37,610 nucleotides of DNA from a virus: IMG/VR virus record IMGVR_UViG_3300034356_000444, positions 1 through 37,610 of that record; one strand, given 5' to 3'. Of this stretch, positions 1,826-35,412 are shown in pieces; positions within the stretch are counted from its first letter, which is position 1; the number at the start of each line of letters is the position of its first letter. A program made the position numbers and the translations under genes. Under the pieces are notes generated by a model that saw only the letters and a list, made by a program, of their open reading frames with translations, did no database searches and was not told the origin of the DNA.

Positions 1826-2202
1826 TTGCGTTCTCCCTTCATTGGCGCGAGGGTCTTCGCGATCTCGCGGATGTTTTCGTCTATGTCTGCCGCAACATTG
1901 TCGAGGCGTATCTTCAGCGCTTCCTCTGGCGCTGCGTCGTCGACGTACTCGTCTGCGAATGATGCATACGCGATCAGGTCGACGAAGCTGTCATGCTTCC
2001 GCTCGTTCGAGATGCGCGATAGCTTCACGCTCATCATCACGATGGCGACGTCATAGGGCGTGACCGTCCTGCCGAGCAATGTGCTCGCGAACAGTGAGGC
2101 GCGCTTGAACGACGGCCTTGGGTCGCCGTACTCCGTTCCTCTCTGCGTGATGGTGGCCAGTGTCTCTTCCAGCGTAGCTCGGTGATTTTTTCGGTTGGTC
2201 AA
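1822..2202 (-). CDS. DUF6378-type phage protein
   Basis: The sequence contains the conserved core of the DUF6378 phage family: TLEETLATITQRGTEYGD near the N-terminus, then VTPYDVAIVMMSVKLSRIS and a DLIAYASFADE helix. These proteins are small, helical and of unknown role, and often sit beside nucleotide-metabolism or replication genes. I place the start at a TTG at 2202, which has GGAG six bases upstream. A longer TTG start at 2268 is possible. The gene overlaps the preceding DnaA-like gene by about 150 bases, far more than any other pair here; see the finding on the A6 run. Confidence 0.8.
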   Translation of the reverse strand: MTNRKNHRATLEETLATITQRGTEYGDPRPSFKRASLFASTLLGRTVTPYDVAIVMMSVKLSRISNERKHDSFVDLIAYASFADEYVDDAAPEEALKIRLDNVAADIDENIREIAKTLAPMKGERK

Positions 2203-2680
2203 GGGTAACTCCAATTCTCTTTGCGTGTTGCTGACAGCCGTGCATGATTGTCGTGTGGTCTCGGCCAAACTTGGCCGCGATTTGTGGATAGCTTAACTTC
2301 AACTCGAGGCGGATTGCGTACCAGACGTGCTGCCGCGCAGCGACGAGCCTGTAGCTACGATCCGGTGACACCAACTCGCGCCACGATATCTCTCTGCCGT
2401 CGATGATCTCATTCGTGATCTTTAGCCAGTCACGCTTGCGGAGCGCGAGCTGCTGCTTCGTGATGGCGATCTGCTCCTCCCACTGCCGCTTCACTCTCTC
2501 GATCTGCTGCCGCGTGATGTGCTTGTTCTTCTCGGCCAACTCAGCCGCAGCCCGAGCGTCCGCCTCTACCTTCGCCTTGGCTTCAGCGATCTTGTCCAGC
2601 CTGTGCCGGTTAGCGGCGTCGGCCATGCGCTGACGCACGCCCTTGTAGTGGTCGACCATCTCGTCCATGACCATGCTCAT
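2051..2680 (-). CDS. DnaA domain IV-like DNA-binding protein
   Basis: The 209-aa protein has a coiled-coil N-terminal half (residues about 15-85, rich in Ala, Lys, Glu and Arg). Around residues 104-157 follows a segment like the DNA-binding domain IV of bacterial DnaA, with a basic-loop arginine/helix part and the signature FGRDHTTIMHGCQ. There is no AAA+ ATPase, so it cannot be a full initiator. It may bind DnaA-box-like sites or modulate host initiation (inference). The ATG at 2680 overlaps the previous stop as ATGA. The last 40 or so residues lie out of frame over the DUF6378 gene and look unlike a conserved domain. Confidence 0.8.
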   Translation of the reverse strand: MSMVMDEMVDHYKGVRQRMADAANRHRLDKIAEAKAKVEADARAAAELAEKNKHITRQQIERVKRQWEEQIAITKQQLALRKRDWLKITNEIIDGREISWRELVSPDRSYRLVAARQHVWYAIRLELKLSYPQIAAKFGRDHTTIMHGCQQHAKRIGVTLDQPKKSPSYAGRDTGHHHAERNGVRRPKAVVQARLTVREHIARQDGHAL

Positions 2681-25915: not shown

Positions 25916-27316
25916 TCAGACGACCCCTGCAAGGTTTCGCCGCAGTGGCTTGCCCTTGAGCCACGACGACGCCCTGCCGCCCACCAGCGCAGCATTGCCG
26001 GCAAACGTCAGGCACAGCGCGTCAGCAAGATCGGGCGACCTCATACCGCGCTTGCGCATCAGGTCTTTCGATTCCACGACGATCTTGCCGGTGGACGTAA
26101 ACGTATACCTCGGAGCGACCAGCTCGTGCCGCAGCGACGCGTCGTTGGGTATCTTTACGCCGCGTGTTGACAGCCAGTCGCGCACCGAGAGCCACAGCTC
26201 GTCGCGCAGCCGGTTGGCGTTTGGGTTCATCGCAGACGTCTCAGCGACATTCACGTCGCGCACGTTGTAGCCCATCTCTCGCAAGCGGTCAGCGACGCCC
26301 GAGCCTAAGCCGATTGTGTCGACGCATATCTCGTCGGGCCGGTCGATGTTGGCCTCGTTGACGATTGCGCCCACGAGCTGCATCAGGTCTAGGCCGCCCC
26401 ACGACTTCACCTCGATCACGACATTCCCCCGGCGCTTGCACAATGCCGACCGGTCAGACCCGAAGCGTGCGACGTCGACGCCGTACACCATCACGTCATG
26501 CTCAGTGCCGGACACGTCACGCGTCATCGCGCTGTCGACGATCTCAGCCGCGATCAGCGTGTCGTCGTCGGCTACAGCAAACTCGCCCAGCACGCGGATG
26601 CGATACGCGTTGCTCTCCTCGCCATACGTCGTCCTGATCTGGTCGACGAAGTCCGACGACACGAGAGCGTTGTCGACGCAGCTTACGTGCATCGTCTCCC
26701 AGTCGCTCGCCAGCTCGTGGTGCGTCTTGTAGAACATACCGCTATTTCTCGTCGGGTTGCCGATCAGGATCGTGCAGGCCGAGTGTCCCGACATCGAACC
26801 GGCTGCGGCTTCGTACACGGCTTCAGGCACGGCTGACGCCTCGTCGATGATCAGCAATACGTGCTCGCTGTGGATACCCGCGAGAGCCTCTGGCCGGTCG
26901 GACGACGACGTGCGTGCCGATGCGAACGAACTCTCGGGCGCACCCTTCAGCGCGATCCTGTCGCTGAACACGTCAAAGCTGTCGCGCAGCACCGGGGGCA
27001 GGCGGTTGACCTGCGCCTTCAGCTCGGAGAAGAGAGCGTCGAACAACTGCCCGGCGGTGGGTGCCGTCATCACGGTCTTCTGCGGGAAGCGCGTACACAT
27101 AAACCAGACTACGGCCCACGCGCAGACAGTGCTCTTACCGACACCGTGACCGGCGCGGATGCTGATGCGCCGGCGACCTGCTGCGACTTTGCGCAGGGCG
27201 TCCTCCTGCCACTTCGTCGGCGACTGGCCGAGCACGTCACGCACGAAGCCGACGGGGTTGTCTCGATAAAGAGATATGAACTCGTCGAACGTCGTTGCTG
27301 CGTCAGTAGCGGCCAT
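25916..27316 (-). CDS. terL: Terminase large subunit
   Basis: This is the packaging motor. The ATPase half shows Walker A GHGVGKST (residues 56-63), Walker B LLIIDEAS (154-161) and a following coupling region with IGNPTRNSG. The RNase H-like nuclease half shows acidic residues in VYGVDVARFGSD (D281), EICVDTIGLGSGV (D333) and SPDLADALCL (D429, D432). It cuts concatemers and pumps DNA through the portal. GGGGAG precedes the ATG at 27316, and the gene overlaps the HNH gene by 14 bases. Length of 466 aa is normal. Confidence 0.93.
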   Translation of the reverse strand: MAATDAATTFDEFISLYRDNPVGFVRDVLGQSPTKWQEDALRKVAAGRRRISIRAGHGVGKSTVCAWAVVWFMCTRFPQKTVMTAPTAGQLFDALFSELKAQVNRLPPVLRDSFDVFSDRIALKGAPESSFASARTSSSDRPEALAGIHSEHVLLIIDEASAVPEAVYEAAAGSMSGHSACTILIGNPTRNSGMFYKTHHELASDWETMHVSCVDNALVSSDFVDQIRTTYGEESNAYRIRVLGEFAVADDDTLIAAEIVDSAMTRDVSGTEHDVMVYGVDVARFGSDRSALCKRRGNVVIEVKSWGGLDLMQLVGAIVNEANIDRPDEICVDTIGLGSGVADRLREMGYNVRDVNVAETSAMNPNANRLRDELWLSVRDWLSTRGVKIPNDASLRHELVAPRYTFTSTGKIVVESKDLMRKRGMRSPDLADALCLTFAGNAALVGGRASSWLKGKPLRRNLAGVV

Positions 27317-27809
27317 CGTTGCTCCCCTTCAGGCGTAGCTCCACGCCGACGTGTCTAGCCAATTCGCGCAGCTGAAGCAATGGGATGCCGGTGATCCGCT
27401 GTATGTCGACCTGATACGCGCCGCGCTTCAGCATCTCTATCGCGACGGGAGACGCCTCGTAATTGTGCTCGTTCCGCGCCCTGCTCTTGCGCGACATGTC
27501 ACGCATATTCTCGGCCTGCGTCGCCGCAAACAGGTGGTCGGGGTTCACGCACAGCTTCACGTCGCAGCTGTGGCATACGTACAACCCGTCTGGTATTTCG
27601 CCGTGCGCAATCTGATACGCGATGCGGTGCGCACGGGCGCGTATCCGCTGACCGCCGTCCGTGATCACCATCACGCCATACCCGCCCTGCGATATCGTGC
27701 CCGTCCACACGTGGCACCCATCTTCGCGCACGATGATCTTGCGCGTGAGGTGGTCGATCTGCTTCACGCGCAACGGTATCCGCTCAACCATATCGCTGTC
27801 CCGCCACAT
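27303..27809 (-). CDS. HNH endonuclease
   Basis: The 168-aa protein is an HNH_3-type nuclease: a DGCHVWTGTISQGGYGVM strand pair, the AHRIAYQIAHGEIPDG helix, then YVCHSCDVKLCVNPDHLFAA with the metal-binding His and Cys residues and the following QAENMRDM helix. The C-terminal part has a possible DNA-binding helix pair (YQVDIQRITGIPLLQLRELA). It may be a homing enzyme, or a packaging nuclease acting with TerL as some HNH proteins do. The ATG at 27809 is used; an alternative ATG is at 27791. It overlaps TerL by 14 bases. Confidence 0.82.
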   Translation of the reverse strand: MWRDSDMVERIPLRVKQIDHLTRKIIVREDGCHVWTGTISQGGYGVMVITDGGQRIRARAHRIAYQIAHGEIPDGLYVCHSCDVKLCVNPDHLFAATQAENMRDMSRKSRARNEHNYEASPVAIEMLKRGAYQVDIQRITGIPLLQLRELARHVGVELRLKGSNDGRY

Positions 27810-27814
27810 GAAAA

Positions 27815-27855
27815 CGCGTCACGAATACCACAACTTTGTGAATTTTCGTGACGCG
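27815..27855. other. 41-bp nested palindrome beside the recombinase gene
   Basis: CGCGTCACGAA at 27815-27825 is an exact inverted copy of TTCGTGACGCG at 27845-27855. Inside it, CACAA and TTGTG (27829-27840) form a second inverted repeat on nearly the same centre. A further TCGTGACG follows at 27866-27873. The site lies between the serine recombinase and HNH genes. It could be a recombination or operator site. Read on the minus strand it can also fold as a hairpin followed by TTTTC, so a weak terminator is an alternative. Confidence 0.6.
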
Positions 27856-27872
27856 CTGTGAAATATCGTGAC

Positions 27873-27891
27873 GGGTAGGGGGGGGTGGGGG
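27873..27891 (+). other. G-quadruplex-type tract
   Basis: The plus strand has GGG, TA, then eight G, T and five G. This meets the four-run G-quadruplex pattern in 19 bases. It lies between the palindrome and the stop of the recombinase gene, on the strand that is the transcription template. A structure here could slow transcription or mark a site; a biological effect is not shown. Confidence 0.5.
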
Positions 27892-27896
27892 TGACG

Positions 27897-28454
27897 CTAT
27901 GGCTGCAGCTTGGCCTCGATCACGCGGTAGACAGACGATCTCGCTATGCCCAAGCGCTTGGCGATCTGCGTCGGGGCCATACCCTGCGCGATAAGCTCGA
28001 CCACGGCGTCGCCCTTGGCCATCGCCGTCGGCTTGCGCCCGAGGTACTTCCCGTCGCGCTTCGCCTTCGCGATGCCCTCACGCTGGCGCTCCAGCATCAT
28101 CTCACGCTCGAACTGCGCCACGCTGCCGATCACGTTCAGCATCAGCTTGCCCGTGGGAGTGCGCGTGTCGAGGTTCATGGCGAGGATGCGTAGGGATGCG
28201 CCGCGCTTCTCGATGCGGTCGACGATGCCGACGAGGTCGCCGACGCTGCGTGCGAGCCGGTCGAGCTTCGTCACGATGAGCACGTCTCCATCTCGTAAGT
28301 AGTCAAGCGCGGCGTCGAGCTGCTCGCGCTTGGCGACGCTCGACACTTGCTCGGCGAATATGCGCTCGGCTCCGGCTGCAGCTAAGTCGCGCTGCTGTGC
28401 CTCGTACCCGGCGACCTGTTCCGTGGTGCTTGTTCTCGTGTATCCGATTTCCAT
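27897..28454 (-). CDS. Small serine recombinase (resolvase/invertase family)
   Basis: The 185-aa protein is a complete small serine recombinase. The catalytic domain has Ser9 with Arg7 in GYTRTSTTEQ, the active-site block TKLDRLARSVGDL (D65, R66, R69) and the FEREMMLERQREGIAKAKRD helix. A short GKYLGRKP linker leads to a C-terminal helix-turn-helix (APTQIAKRLGIARSSVYRVI). Such enzymes resolve or invert DNA at paired short sites; they are not large serine integrases. AGGA precedes the ATG at 28454. It lies inside the packaging module, an unusual place. Confidence 0.9.
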   Translation of the reverse strand: MEIGYTRTSTTEQVAGYEAQQRDLAAAGAERIFAEQVSSVAKREQLDAALDYLRDGDVLIVTKLDRLARSVGDLVGIVDRIEKRGASLRILAMNLDTRTPTGKLMLNVIGSVAQFEREMMLERQREGIAKAKRDGKYLGRKPTAMAKGDAVVELIAQGMAPTQIAKRLGIARSSVYRVIEAKLQP

Positions 28455-28484
28455 TTTCGTGTTCCTGTGCGTTGTGTGTGCGGT

Positions 28485-28538
28485 GGGCGGGGGGGTCATT
28501 GCAGCAGCCGCCCCCGCCAGCCGGGGGGCCGGGGGGGG
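28485..28538 (+). other. Second G-rich tract, in the recombinase leader
   Basis: The plus strand carries G-runs of 3, 7, 6 and 8 within 54 bases, split by a C-rich middle (CCGCCCCCGCC). It lies in the untranslated leader between the promoter at 28591-28619 and the recombinase ATG. The message would be C-rich here. Quadruplex or hairpin formation is possible. Together with 27873-27891 it brackets the recombinase gene. Confidence 0.5.
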
Positions 28539-28590
28539 TCTGGCGCGTTCCCGCCACCCGATTCCCCTCCCGCACCGCCAAGCCTTAGAC

Positions 28591-28619
28591 GTTGTAGGAC
28601 GCCGCGTCCCATATGTCAA
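28591..28619 (-). promoter_or_regulatory. Promoter for recombinase/packaging genes
   Basis: On the minus strand a perfect TTGACA (28619-28614) and TACAAC (28596-28591) are separated by exactly 17 bases. Start of transcription would be near 28584. It lies in a 223-base gap between the TerS candidate and the recombinase, so it can drive the recombinase, HNH, TerL and the virion genes. Confidence 0.7.
28597..28609. promoter_or_regulatory. Operator-like palindrome in promoter spacer
   Basis: GGACGCCGCGTCC is a palindrome (GGACG, CCG, CGTCC) lying exactly between the -35 and -10 boxes. Related hexamers occur upstream: GGGACG at 28633-28638, TGTCCC at 28647-28652 and CGTCCC at 28659-28664. A regulator bound here would block the promoter. 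The recombinase or one of the two HTH proteins are candidates; which one cannot be told. Confidence 0.5.
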
Positions 28620-28677
28620 CCACCGTTTCAGTGGGACGCTATCGGTTGTCCCGCGTCACGTCCCGCATGAGCAAGCC

Positions 28678-29106
28678 CTATTCGGACGCGACGTGGTCGA
28701 TCACTATCGTGTCAGCGGTCTGCCTCGCCTTGTCGTTCAGGCGCTTCAGCGCATCGAGGTGCATGACGTGCGTATGCTCGACCGATACGTCCACGTCCAC
28801 GCGCTGGCGCACCTTGCCGAGGTTCCGGTCAAGCACTTCCTTGGCCGCACCCAGCGCAGCCCCGGCGTTCTCGCTGTCGAGCAATCTGGCGAGCGTGGCG
28901 ATTGCAGGCAGCGAGAGCGCGTCTATCGCCCGTTTCAGCTGCAACTGCCTCTTGCTGAACCCTCCCGGATTCATCGCCGTCGATCCCTTTTGGATGCGCC
29001 CCTTCTCATCCCTGACCGCAACTATCTTAGTAGGTGGTATCATACTACCGCAACTCGCGTTTCCATCCACCCCTTCCTCGACCGCATCAAGCTCATCTCT
29101 GACCAT
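28678..29106 (-). CDS. Terminase small subunit candidate
   Basis: This 142-aa basic helical protein lies one promoter and two genes before TerL. It has a short N-terminal GSTAMNPGGFSKRQLQLKRA part and a helical pair (SLPAIATLARLLDSENAGAA, GAAKEVLDRNLGKVRQRVDV) like the DUF5681-type proteins seen as TerS candidates in other phages. No clear helix-turn-helix is visible, so the call rests on position and general pattern. The ATG at 29106 has AGGGGTGG before it; an upstream ATG at 29148 has no such site. Confidence 0.55.
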   Translation of the reverse strand: MVRDELDAVEEGVDGNASCGSMIPPTKIVAVRDEKGRIQKGSTAMNPGGFSKRQLQLKRAIDALSLPAIATLARLLDSENAGAALGAAKEVLDRNLGKVRQRVDVDVSVEHTHVMHLDALKRLNDKARQTADTIVIDHVASE

Positions 29107-33418: not shown

Positions 33419-33895
33419 TTACCGTGTCGCCCCGTACCAAGCGATCAGCGCGGCGTCTGACCGGCCATCGTCCTTCTTGCGAGCGAAAAGCTGTGCATAA
33501 CTCGGGAATAATTCGATGGCCCTCATGCGCGAACCGTCCTTGCCCTGCCGCACGCTGGCCGCCTTCTGCCACGCCTGAGGCGTGACGTAGCTGACGGGCC
33601 ACTCCAGCGCGGCCATGATGCCCTCGATGGTGCCGACGTTGCGACCAAAGGCAAACATCGACGAGACGCCCTGCCCCGGCATCGCGCCTATCTTCTCGAA
33701 GTAGACAGCCGTGATCTTGAAGTTGGCGTCGAGGTCGTTGAAGATACCCGCCAGCAGCGGTGCGTTCAGCTCGCGCTTCACCGTCTTGCCGCGCATGACT
33801 TCCATCACGGGCATATCCATCACGGACAGGTGGCCTGTCTCCACGTTGAAGGCAGCGATAGCGCCAGAAGCGCCGGGGTCAATCCCGATGATCAT
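33419..33895 (-). CDS. RuvC-like Holliday junction resolvase
   Basis: This 158-aa protein has the RNase H-type RuvC pattern: Asp6 in IIGIDPGASGAIA, Glu67 in VYFEKIGAMPGQG, and the C-terminal acidic pair in KKDDGRSDAALIA (D143 and D147). These bind the two metal ions that cut branched DNA. In phages it trims recombination intermediates before packaging. The gene overlaps the methyltransferase gene by ATGA. All four acidic positions are present, so it should be active. Confidence 0.88.
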   Translation of the reverse strand: MIIGIDPGASGAIAAFNVETGHLSVMDMPVMEVMRGKTVKRELNAPLLAGIFNDLDANFKITAVYFEKIGAMPGQGVSSMFAFGRNVGTIEGIMAALEWPVSYVTPQAWQKAASVRQGKDGSRMRAIELFPSYAQLFARKKDDGRSDAALIAWYGATR

Positions 33896-35412
33896 TGTCC
33901 AATCTCCCTTGCGATGCGCTCACCGATCCACGCCATTATTGGCACGGCCATCGAATTACCAAGCGCCTTGTAGCGCGGCCCGTCTGCCGCTTTTGGTATT
34001 GCCGTATAGTCGTCGGGGAATCCTTGCAGGCGCTCGCACTCACGCGGCGTGAGACGGCGGACGGCCATATGTTGATGTATAAACCGCTGTTGATTAGTGC
34101 CACGGCTTTCTCTGGCGGCGTCTAAAGTAGACATAACATCTTCAAGTTTACGAACGACACCGCCATATGATGCGTAAGCCATTGACTGCATCACGTAATC
34201 ACCACCCTGATTCCCTCCGCTAGGGCCACCGGCCAACACGGGCTGCGCTACATCGGCTTCCCGTGCCTTGTAATCCTTGCCTGAGTTCATTGGCATGATG
34301 GAGTAGGTGACGGCCATCGGGTTCTTGGCACCGAGCGTTTGAACCATATCAACATCCGTCTGGGGGTTCGACATCTGCGCTCCGAAGGTGATTGGTTGCG
34401 CTACCCAATGATGATTGGCTTTTGTAATGGTGAGCATTGGATCCCCTTCTTCACCATAGCCGCGCCCAATACGATTATCATCGGAGGGTCGTCCTTTGAT
34501 ATTCATCATGTCAAGCGGTATCGGTTGGGCTACAGCCAATTGATTGTCACCCGCATCAGCACGCAACGTAGGGGATAAACCAGGTTCGGCATCGCCATAA
34601 CCTAAGCGTTTTAGTTTTCCTGGTTCAAATGCGATTGGTTGTGTTACAAGGCCAGTCGCCGCCTTGTAGTCCCGCGCACTCATTGTCGATGCGACGTCGT
34701 CGGTCCCATATTCGTCGCTACGTTGGCGGTCAAAGCATTGTGCAACTGTGGCCGCAACTTCTTTCCCCTGCTCTCTGCTCGGCGGAGTATTCCGGCGCAA
34801 GCCTTCGCGCTCAAAAAGAACTTCTGCGGGATCGAATCCGTCTCTAGAACTTGCGACAACGAACACACGACGGCGTCGTTGGGCCACTCCGAAATATTGA
34901 GCGTCGAGAACTCGCCACGCTGCTGATCTTTTCGGTCCCACAACCATACCCGCACTTGTCCACTTTCCCCCTGTCGGGACGATGGGGTCATCGTTTCCGA
35001 CAAGCGCCCCGAGGAAGCACCCGAAGGCGTTGTCTTTAACGGAGAGCACTCCGGGGACGTTCTCCCATACGATGACGGTTCCGCATCCAGTAGGTCGAAG
35101 ATCGTCGATTGCATTTGCAAGTCTCACAAACTCTAGGGTCAAGTTGCCACGATCATCGTCGAGGCTATTACGAAGTCCGGCCACGCTAAACGCTTGGCAC
35201 GGCGTGCCGCCAACAAGAACATCGGCGTCGCCAATCCAGTCCTGCTCACGCAGAACGGTAAAGTCACCGTGCAGCGGAACATCGGGATAGTGGTGCGCGA
35301 GAACCTGACGCGGGAACTTCTCGATCTCGCTGAACGCAAGCGGCTGAAAGCCGTGGCCATGCCACGCAACGGTCGCGGCTTCGATGCCGGAGCAGACGGA
35401 GAGATACCTCAT
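33892..35412 (-). CDS. C5-cytosine DNA methyltransferase with repeat insert
   Basis: This is a full C5-methyltransferase of 506 aa. Motifs: I in SVCSGIEAATVAWH, IV GGTPCQAFSVAGL with Cys72, VI VWENVPGVL (E117), VIII QRRRR (178-182), IX/X in RECERLQGFPDDYT and ALGNSMAVP. Residues about 226-450, the target-recognition region, contain five to six loose repeats built on V-x-QPI-x-F and DYKA, each of roughly 30-45 residues. It probably protects phage DNA from host restriction; the target is unknown. Its start overlaps the regulator stop by ATGA. Confidence 0.9.
   Translation of the reverse strand: MRYLSVCSGIEAATVAWHGHGFQPLAFSEIEKFPRQVLAHHYPDVPLHGDFTVLREQDWIGDADVLVGGTPCQAFSVAGLRNSLDDDRGNLTLEFVRLANAIDDLRPTGCGTVIVWENVPGVLSVKDNAFGCFLGALVGNDDPIVPTGGKWTSAGMVVGPKRSAAWRVLDAQYFGVAQRRRRVFVVASSRDGFDPAEVLFEREGLRRNTPPSREQGKEVAATVAQCFDRQRSDEYGTDDVASTMSARDYKAATGLVTQPIAFEPGKLKRLGYGDAEPGLSPTLRADAGDNQLAVAQPIPLDMMNIKGRPSDDNRIGRGYGEEGDPMLTITKANHHWVAQPITFGAQMSNPQTDVDMVQTLGAKNPMAVTYSIMPMNSGKDYKAREADVAQPVLAGGPSGGNQGGDYVMQSMAYASYGGVVRKLEDVMSTLDAARESRGTNQQRFIHQHMAVRRLTPRECERLQGFPDDYTAIPKAADGPRYKALGNSMAVPIMAWIGERIAREIGQ

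Follow-up and report, generated by a model that had tools for sequence, protein, structure and literature searches.

The terminase region of the phage DNA analysed here encodes a small serine recombinase, SerR, with a predicted recombination site (res) upstream of its gene. On balance, we consider SerR and res to be a plasmid-type resolution module that was acquired by podovirus-like phages, is lodged at the packaging end, and would monomerise phage DNA. Such a locus would tie site-specific resolution to genome-end formation in phages with a direct terminal repeat (DTR), and offers a testable route of circularisation or monomerisation independent of homologous recombination.

Genes between TerS and TerL

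The analysed stretch of DNA (the window) comprises 37,610 bp, and the genes of its terminase region are all located on the minus strand. In the order of transcription, these are the TerS candidate (28678-29106), SerR (27897-28454), an HNH nuclease (27303-27809) and TerL (25916-27316). Profile matches and coordinates bear out the original prediction, which had placed a serine recombinase and an HNH_3 nuclease between a TerS candidate and TerL. The two G-rich tracts described for the locus are likewise both present, the upstream one at 28489-28539.

TerL, the terminase large subunit, matched phrog_2 (E=3e-46) and phrog_5902 (E=4e-55), and 49 viral relatives of it were found. The TerS candidate, which lies in a longer ORF reaching 29148, matched phrog_2538 weakly (E=0.04). 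Its assignment is also based on its position before the putative packaging element, and on its orthologues. Those of L040 and L064 match phrog_2538 at E=0.003-0.005, the latter with an additional sub-threshold match to DUF5681, and the start at 29106 agrees with the start of the L040 orthologue. The C-terminus of the candidate is common to the TerS candidates of relatives lacking SerR.

SerR comprises 185 amino acids from the ATG at 28454 and matches the Pfam families Resolvase (E=6e-39) and HTH_7 (E=3e-10). It possesses a catalytic N-terminal domain with the serine nucleophile, an arginine cluster, and a C-terminal helix-turn-helix (HTH). Ser9, Arg7 and the DRLAR block are invariant among the homologues, in agreement with the earlier description of the protein by Ser9, DRLAR and a C-terminal HTH. 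PDB matches to gamma-delta, Tn3 and Gin were obtained at 1e-26 to 1e-30. The comparison covered some 50 relatives of TerL and some 190 homologues of SerR. Outside phages, SerR has its closest kin among alphaproteobacterial resolvases, including those of small plasmids, and is 58-65% identical to plasmid resolvases. Judged by its sequence, it belongs to a resolvase family that is common in the plasmids and genomes of Alphaproteobacteria.

The HNH_3 endonuclease (minus strand, 168 aa) matches PF13392 (HNH_3, E=1e-13) and the PADLOC homing endonuclease model (E=1e-4). In the closest clade (~98%), the order TerS-SerR-HNH-TerL is constant where contigs cover the locus. In the next clade (TerL ~80%, SerR ~75%; hereafter the ~75% clade), SerR is also found between TerS and TerL, and HNH is absent or other cargo is present. 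As HNH is absent or replaced in relatives outside the closest clade that keep SerR, it would represent separate cargo in the same variable interval, probably a homing-type passenger unrelated to SerR. The view of both genes as one unit is therefore not supported. In some cos phages, packaging involves an HNH protein. This precedent, and the neighbouring position of SerR and HNH in the terminase gap of the closest clade, would fit a single SerR-HNH system acting on genome ends before packaging. Such a system is nonetheless highly improbable, since most SerR-bearing relatives outside the closest clade lack this HNH or have another one elsewhere in the gap, and the protein is of the HNH_3 type that matches the homing endonuclease model. 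Conservation of HNH with the terminase genes, as for packaging proteins of the HK97 gp74 type, was not found among the relatives.

Between SerR and HNH, just before HNH, three CGCGTCACGA half-sites are located (27815-27873), one of them inverted, the other two direct and 20 bp apart from each other (2 matches versus 0.04 expected). The palindromic repeats noted earlier at this place do exist. As a recombinase site they were rejected, given that they are kept only in the ~98% clade and are missing behind SerR in the ~75% clade. The candidate res lies on the other side of SerR. The half-sites are a possible HNH operator.

Predicted res site and its relation to known resolution systems

A three-dimer res of 116 bp is predicted upstream of the SerR gene (28572-28687), where it overlaps both the promoter of SerR and the stop codon of TerS. 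On the minus strand, it consists of site I, the predicted crossover site containing the TerS stop codon (28660-28687, 28 bp), site II (28606-28637, 32 bp) and site III (28572-28600, 29 bp). The resulting layout of 28-22-32-5-29 bp is near that of Tn3/gamma-delta, and the half-sites are of the GTCC(N)A type, in inverted pairs. In the window alone this pattern is not statistically unique, as other places in the genome reach an equal symmetry score (local p ~0.03), and the identification of res therefore rests on the homologues. The same layout was found upstream of forty-four out of 80 bacterial homologues at p<=0.01, compared to 0 out of 77 downstream controls. Among the viral homologues, 18 out of 77 reached this threshold. 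The lower share is partly explained by the ~75% clade, where the same layout is present 156-229 bp before the start codon and the site falls outside the 260 bp scanned.

In the plasmid loci L089, L090, L092, L093 and L094, the res layout likewise obtained the best score, and the site I core (CAATAG..CTTGCC-like) is common to phages and plasmids. Half-site words vary by lineage (GTCC, GTCTCA, CTATCA, GTTCCA), while the six copies in each genome are alike. Half-site agreement was 0.74 within genomes versus 0.48 between genomes, the former value being inflated because the scan selects for agreement. The HTH of SerR differs between subclades whose half-sites differ. Across the SerR clades, down to ~65% identity, the predicted res and the active-site residues are maintained.

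The spacers of the Tn3 res measure 22 bp and 5 bp. The whole Tn3 res is a 114-bp three-dimer site (PMC9943657). Similar to TnpR-res of Tn3/gamma-delta, the window combines a small serine recombinase bearing a C-terminal HTH with three inverted dimer sites upstream of the gene, a 28-bp site I, the same two spacers, and a promoter overlapped by res. Three inverted dimer sites of ~114-120 bp in total were found upstream in the subfamily, a claim carried by the homologues. The site sizes are 28/32-33/28-30 bp in the SerR subfamily and not the exact 28/34/25 bp of Tn3, with sites II and III of ~32 and ~29 bp in the window. For this reason the predicted system is named Tn3-like and not Tn3. SGI1 departs from these sizes too, with a res of 28-22-30-2-25 bp in a system that eliminates multimers (PMC12217951). 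Like SerR-res, SGI1 Res-res involves a Tn3-like resolvase on a mobile element, although SGI1 is a genomic island and not a phage. Transposase genes or transposon ends, which are present in Tn3, were not seen here.

The resolvases of the plasmids Roseomonas p1318-9, Methylobacterium pAMS5c and p3META1 (~60-63% protein identity to SerR) possess the same res layout and site I core as the window. Unlike in the window, no terminase context was seen for them. The distance between the end of res and the gene is mostly 3-35 bp in the homologues and 69 bp in p1318-9, compared to 117 bp in the window clade, in which, unlike in Tn3/gamma-delta, the putative packaging-end element sits between res and the SerR start codon.

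The promoter of SerR (TTGACA-17-TACAAC; 28619-28591, minus strand) lies within sites II and III and is kept across clades. It is the promoter that was described as strong for the locus; the consensus scanner did not report it. Its position suggests autorepression of SerR. A conserved promoter upstream of SerR-HNH-TerL would also suit a SerR that is mainly an autoregulated DNA-binding regulator of TerL or the late operon, acting via the promoter inside res. This role is very unlikely, considering that the catalytic residues are invariant and that the layout is that of a recombination site, found also in plasmids without these phage genes. A role of SerR as a DNA invertase that flips part of the phage genome is extremely improbable, despite the name of phrog_125 (DNA invertase) and Gin as the best PDB match. 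The site I core occurs once in the window, not as the two inverted crossover sites of Gin and Hin, and a three-dimer res in the upstream position is in line with a resolvase.

The standard reaction of a three-site resolvase takes place on supercoiled DNA, between res copies in direct repeat (PMC9943657). As each genome has a single res, SerR would find its substrates in multimers, either concatemers or dimeric circles. We therefore favour multimer resolution as its role, with cyclisation via res in terminal repeats as the alternative. For resolution, SerR dimers would bind the three res sites, and bound SerR would repress its own promoter. Two res copies in direct repeat on the same molecule would then be brought together by SerR, with Ser9 serving to cleave site I before the DNA is rejoined, and circular dimers or concatemeric stretches would be split into monomer circles. 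The suggestion that a resolvase acts on genome multimers is thus retained in kind, as the Tn3-like three-site res is common to plasmid and genomic homologues, but not with HNH as its partner. P1 is a plasmid prophage with headful packaging. Its Cre-loxP system represents phage-borne site-specific multimer resolution (PMC10999674), and differs from SerR-res by the use of a tyrosine recombinase and a simple site. Against a resolution role, concatemers are usually needed for phage packaging, and a resolvase would remove them. Partition or clear plasmid-maintenance genes were not seen among the window proteins scanned, and a literature search on resolvases or res at phage terminase loci retrieved none.

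C-rich element and predicted terminal repeat

On the minus strand, the sequence of the G-rich tract upstream of SerR is ACCCCCCCCGGCCCCCCGGCTGGCGGGGGCGGCTGCTGCAATGACCCCCC; this tract represents a C-rich element (28489-28539, minus strand) and a putative packaging-end site. Most of the relatives examined have a similar element in the TerS-TerL gap, whether or not they carry SerR; in L064 and L145 it follows SerR. In phage phiM5 (TerL 68%), the annotated DTR is an exact 357-bp repeat that starts in TerS and ends in the C-rich element. Because the phiM5 repeat ends inside the phiM5 copy, the element probably marks the packaging cut and the terminal-repeat boundary. Aligned to phiM5, the cut in the window would lie near 28497/28498. 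The direct terminal repeat predicted from phiM5 homology would extend from about 28498 to 28916 and contain the whole res; res, just upstream of the C-rich element, may thus be located within the terminal repeat. Beside this probable cut, SerR and res would most likely split joined genomes into single copies. The C-rich element is a candidate for the packaging end in a large group of phages that have not been cultured.

phiM5 also has a related portal. It differs from the window by a tyrosine integrase and the absence of SerR between TerS and TerL. In the LUZ24 record, unlike in phiM5, the DTR is not beside TerL. Compared to the fixed DTR of phiM5, the ends of the window record share only a 127-bp repeat, which looks like an assembly overlap. 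Four of the near-complete relatives have end repeats of 82-127 bp (123-127 bp and assembly-like in three of them), and none were found in the others. The start of contig G002 is no more than 1-2 bp away from the homologous TerS codon, at the left end of the predicted repeat (one contig), and breaks at the C-rich element are present in contigs G001 and G008. As signs of repeat ends these are suggestive only, and the breaks at the C-rich element may come from the G-rich sequence.

The same observations bear on genome cyclisation. If res were present at both ends of the virion DNA in direct orientation, SerR could recombine the two copies on infection, and SerR-res, encoded beside the left repeat, would resemble Cre-lox, which is able to do so for P1. 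The position of res between points homologous to the phiM5 DTR ends, one inside the TerS gene and the other inside the C-rich element, agrees with this, as do the G002 start and the G001 and G008 breaks. We regard cyclisation as rather unlikely, given that the DTR of the window phage is only predicted, its 127-bp end repeat is assembly-like, and the contig breaks may have the other origin mentioned. Furthermore, supercoiled DNA is the substrate in the standard reaction of Tn3-type systems (PMC9943657), and an exonuclease VIII-like protein is encoded by the phage itself, so that DTR annealing may suffice. In a combined reading, which we consider less likely than not, res would lie inside the terminal repeat in phages of this family, each virion genome would end in two direct res copies, the resolvase would both close the incoming genome and keep it monomeric, and plasmid-type modules would have been recruited to the packaging end repeatedly and independently.

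The C-rich element was also considered as a hairpin, and this was rejected as single-strand folding was no better than for shuffles. A second C-tract of the CCCCCC(T)ACCCCC type is present nearer TerL in the window (27870-27895) and in L022, L031 and L037, which lack SerR. In the window this tract comes after SerR, which gives the impression of a packaging region in two parts with SerR between them. The first 179 bases of L003, at the end of contig G001, resemble a bacterial ferredoxin-type gene. The junction with the phage falls precisely inside the C-rich element and is probably an assembly chimera formed across the GC-rich stretch.

Distribution and origin of SerR

The presence of SerR varies among closely related phages. 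Some relatives with 73-79% TerL identity lack SerR, which is thus a dispensable feature of some lineages. Among the relatives without SerR, TerS and TerL are close neighbours in L022, L024 and L026, and a phosphoesterase-like gene occupies the gap in L031 (by our own reading) and L085. The interval also gathers HNH, PAPS-reductase-like, BPL_N-like and calcineurin-like genes. The gap is wide because this cargo-bearing interval surrounds a conserved packaging-end element.

SerR-family genes were found in the terminase gap of three or more TerL lineages that are unrelated to each other, and both orientations occur. Many other viral contigs carry SerR with no TerL detected nearby. In L066, L067 and L155, the gene lies between TerS (phrog_1482, E=2e-25) and TerL (phrog_979) on the opposite strand. 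In L072-L076 and L184 it is just upstream of TerL, and in L078 it is ~150 bp from TerL. Patchy presence, in an interval that collects various other genes, is what would be expected if the resolvase and res were a selfish passenger, taken from a plasmid by chance and of no gain to the phage. This is unlikely in view of the maintenance of res and active-site residues across the SerR clades and the recurrence at the terminase gap in unrelated lineages. The proposal of a mobile insertion is partly supported by this patchiness and by plasmid and genomic resolvases as the nearest non-phage kin.

In the tree, the window and ~75% clades group together (99/93), and L064/L145 are placed elsewhere among bacterial sequences. 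This preference suggests two acquisitions of SerR in the TerL family, although a single acquisition was not rejected (AU p=0.177). The findings suggest that plasmids and phages have exchanged resolution modules repeatedly. The search for prophage relatives gave matches in 12 out of 385 bacterial genomes at E<=1e-60 (best identity 55-56%), with short flanking loci without SerR. In L042 (4726-5277) and L043 (4351-4896), a distant serine recombinase (~33-35% identity) occupies the corresponding position upstream of TerL and is preceded by a C-rich stretch, and no res layout was detected at these two genes.

Elsewhere in the window, a 146-aa ORF of protein-like composition (34680-35120, minus strand), which ends ...KFFLSAKACAGILRRAESRGKKLRPQLHNAL..., is nested in another frame of a cytosine methyltransferase-like ORF (33892-35412, minus strand). 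The C-terminal part of the ORF at 2051-2680 (minus strand) resembles, by our own reading, a DnaA DNA-binding domain (...YPQIAAKFGRDHTTIMHGCQQHAKR...), and a PHROG match at E<=0.01 was not obtained for this ORF. Positions 1-1500 of the window have a GC content of 0.44, compared to ~0.59 elsewhere, and few convincing genes, and are a possible origin region.
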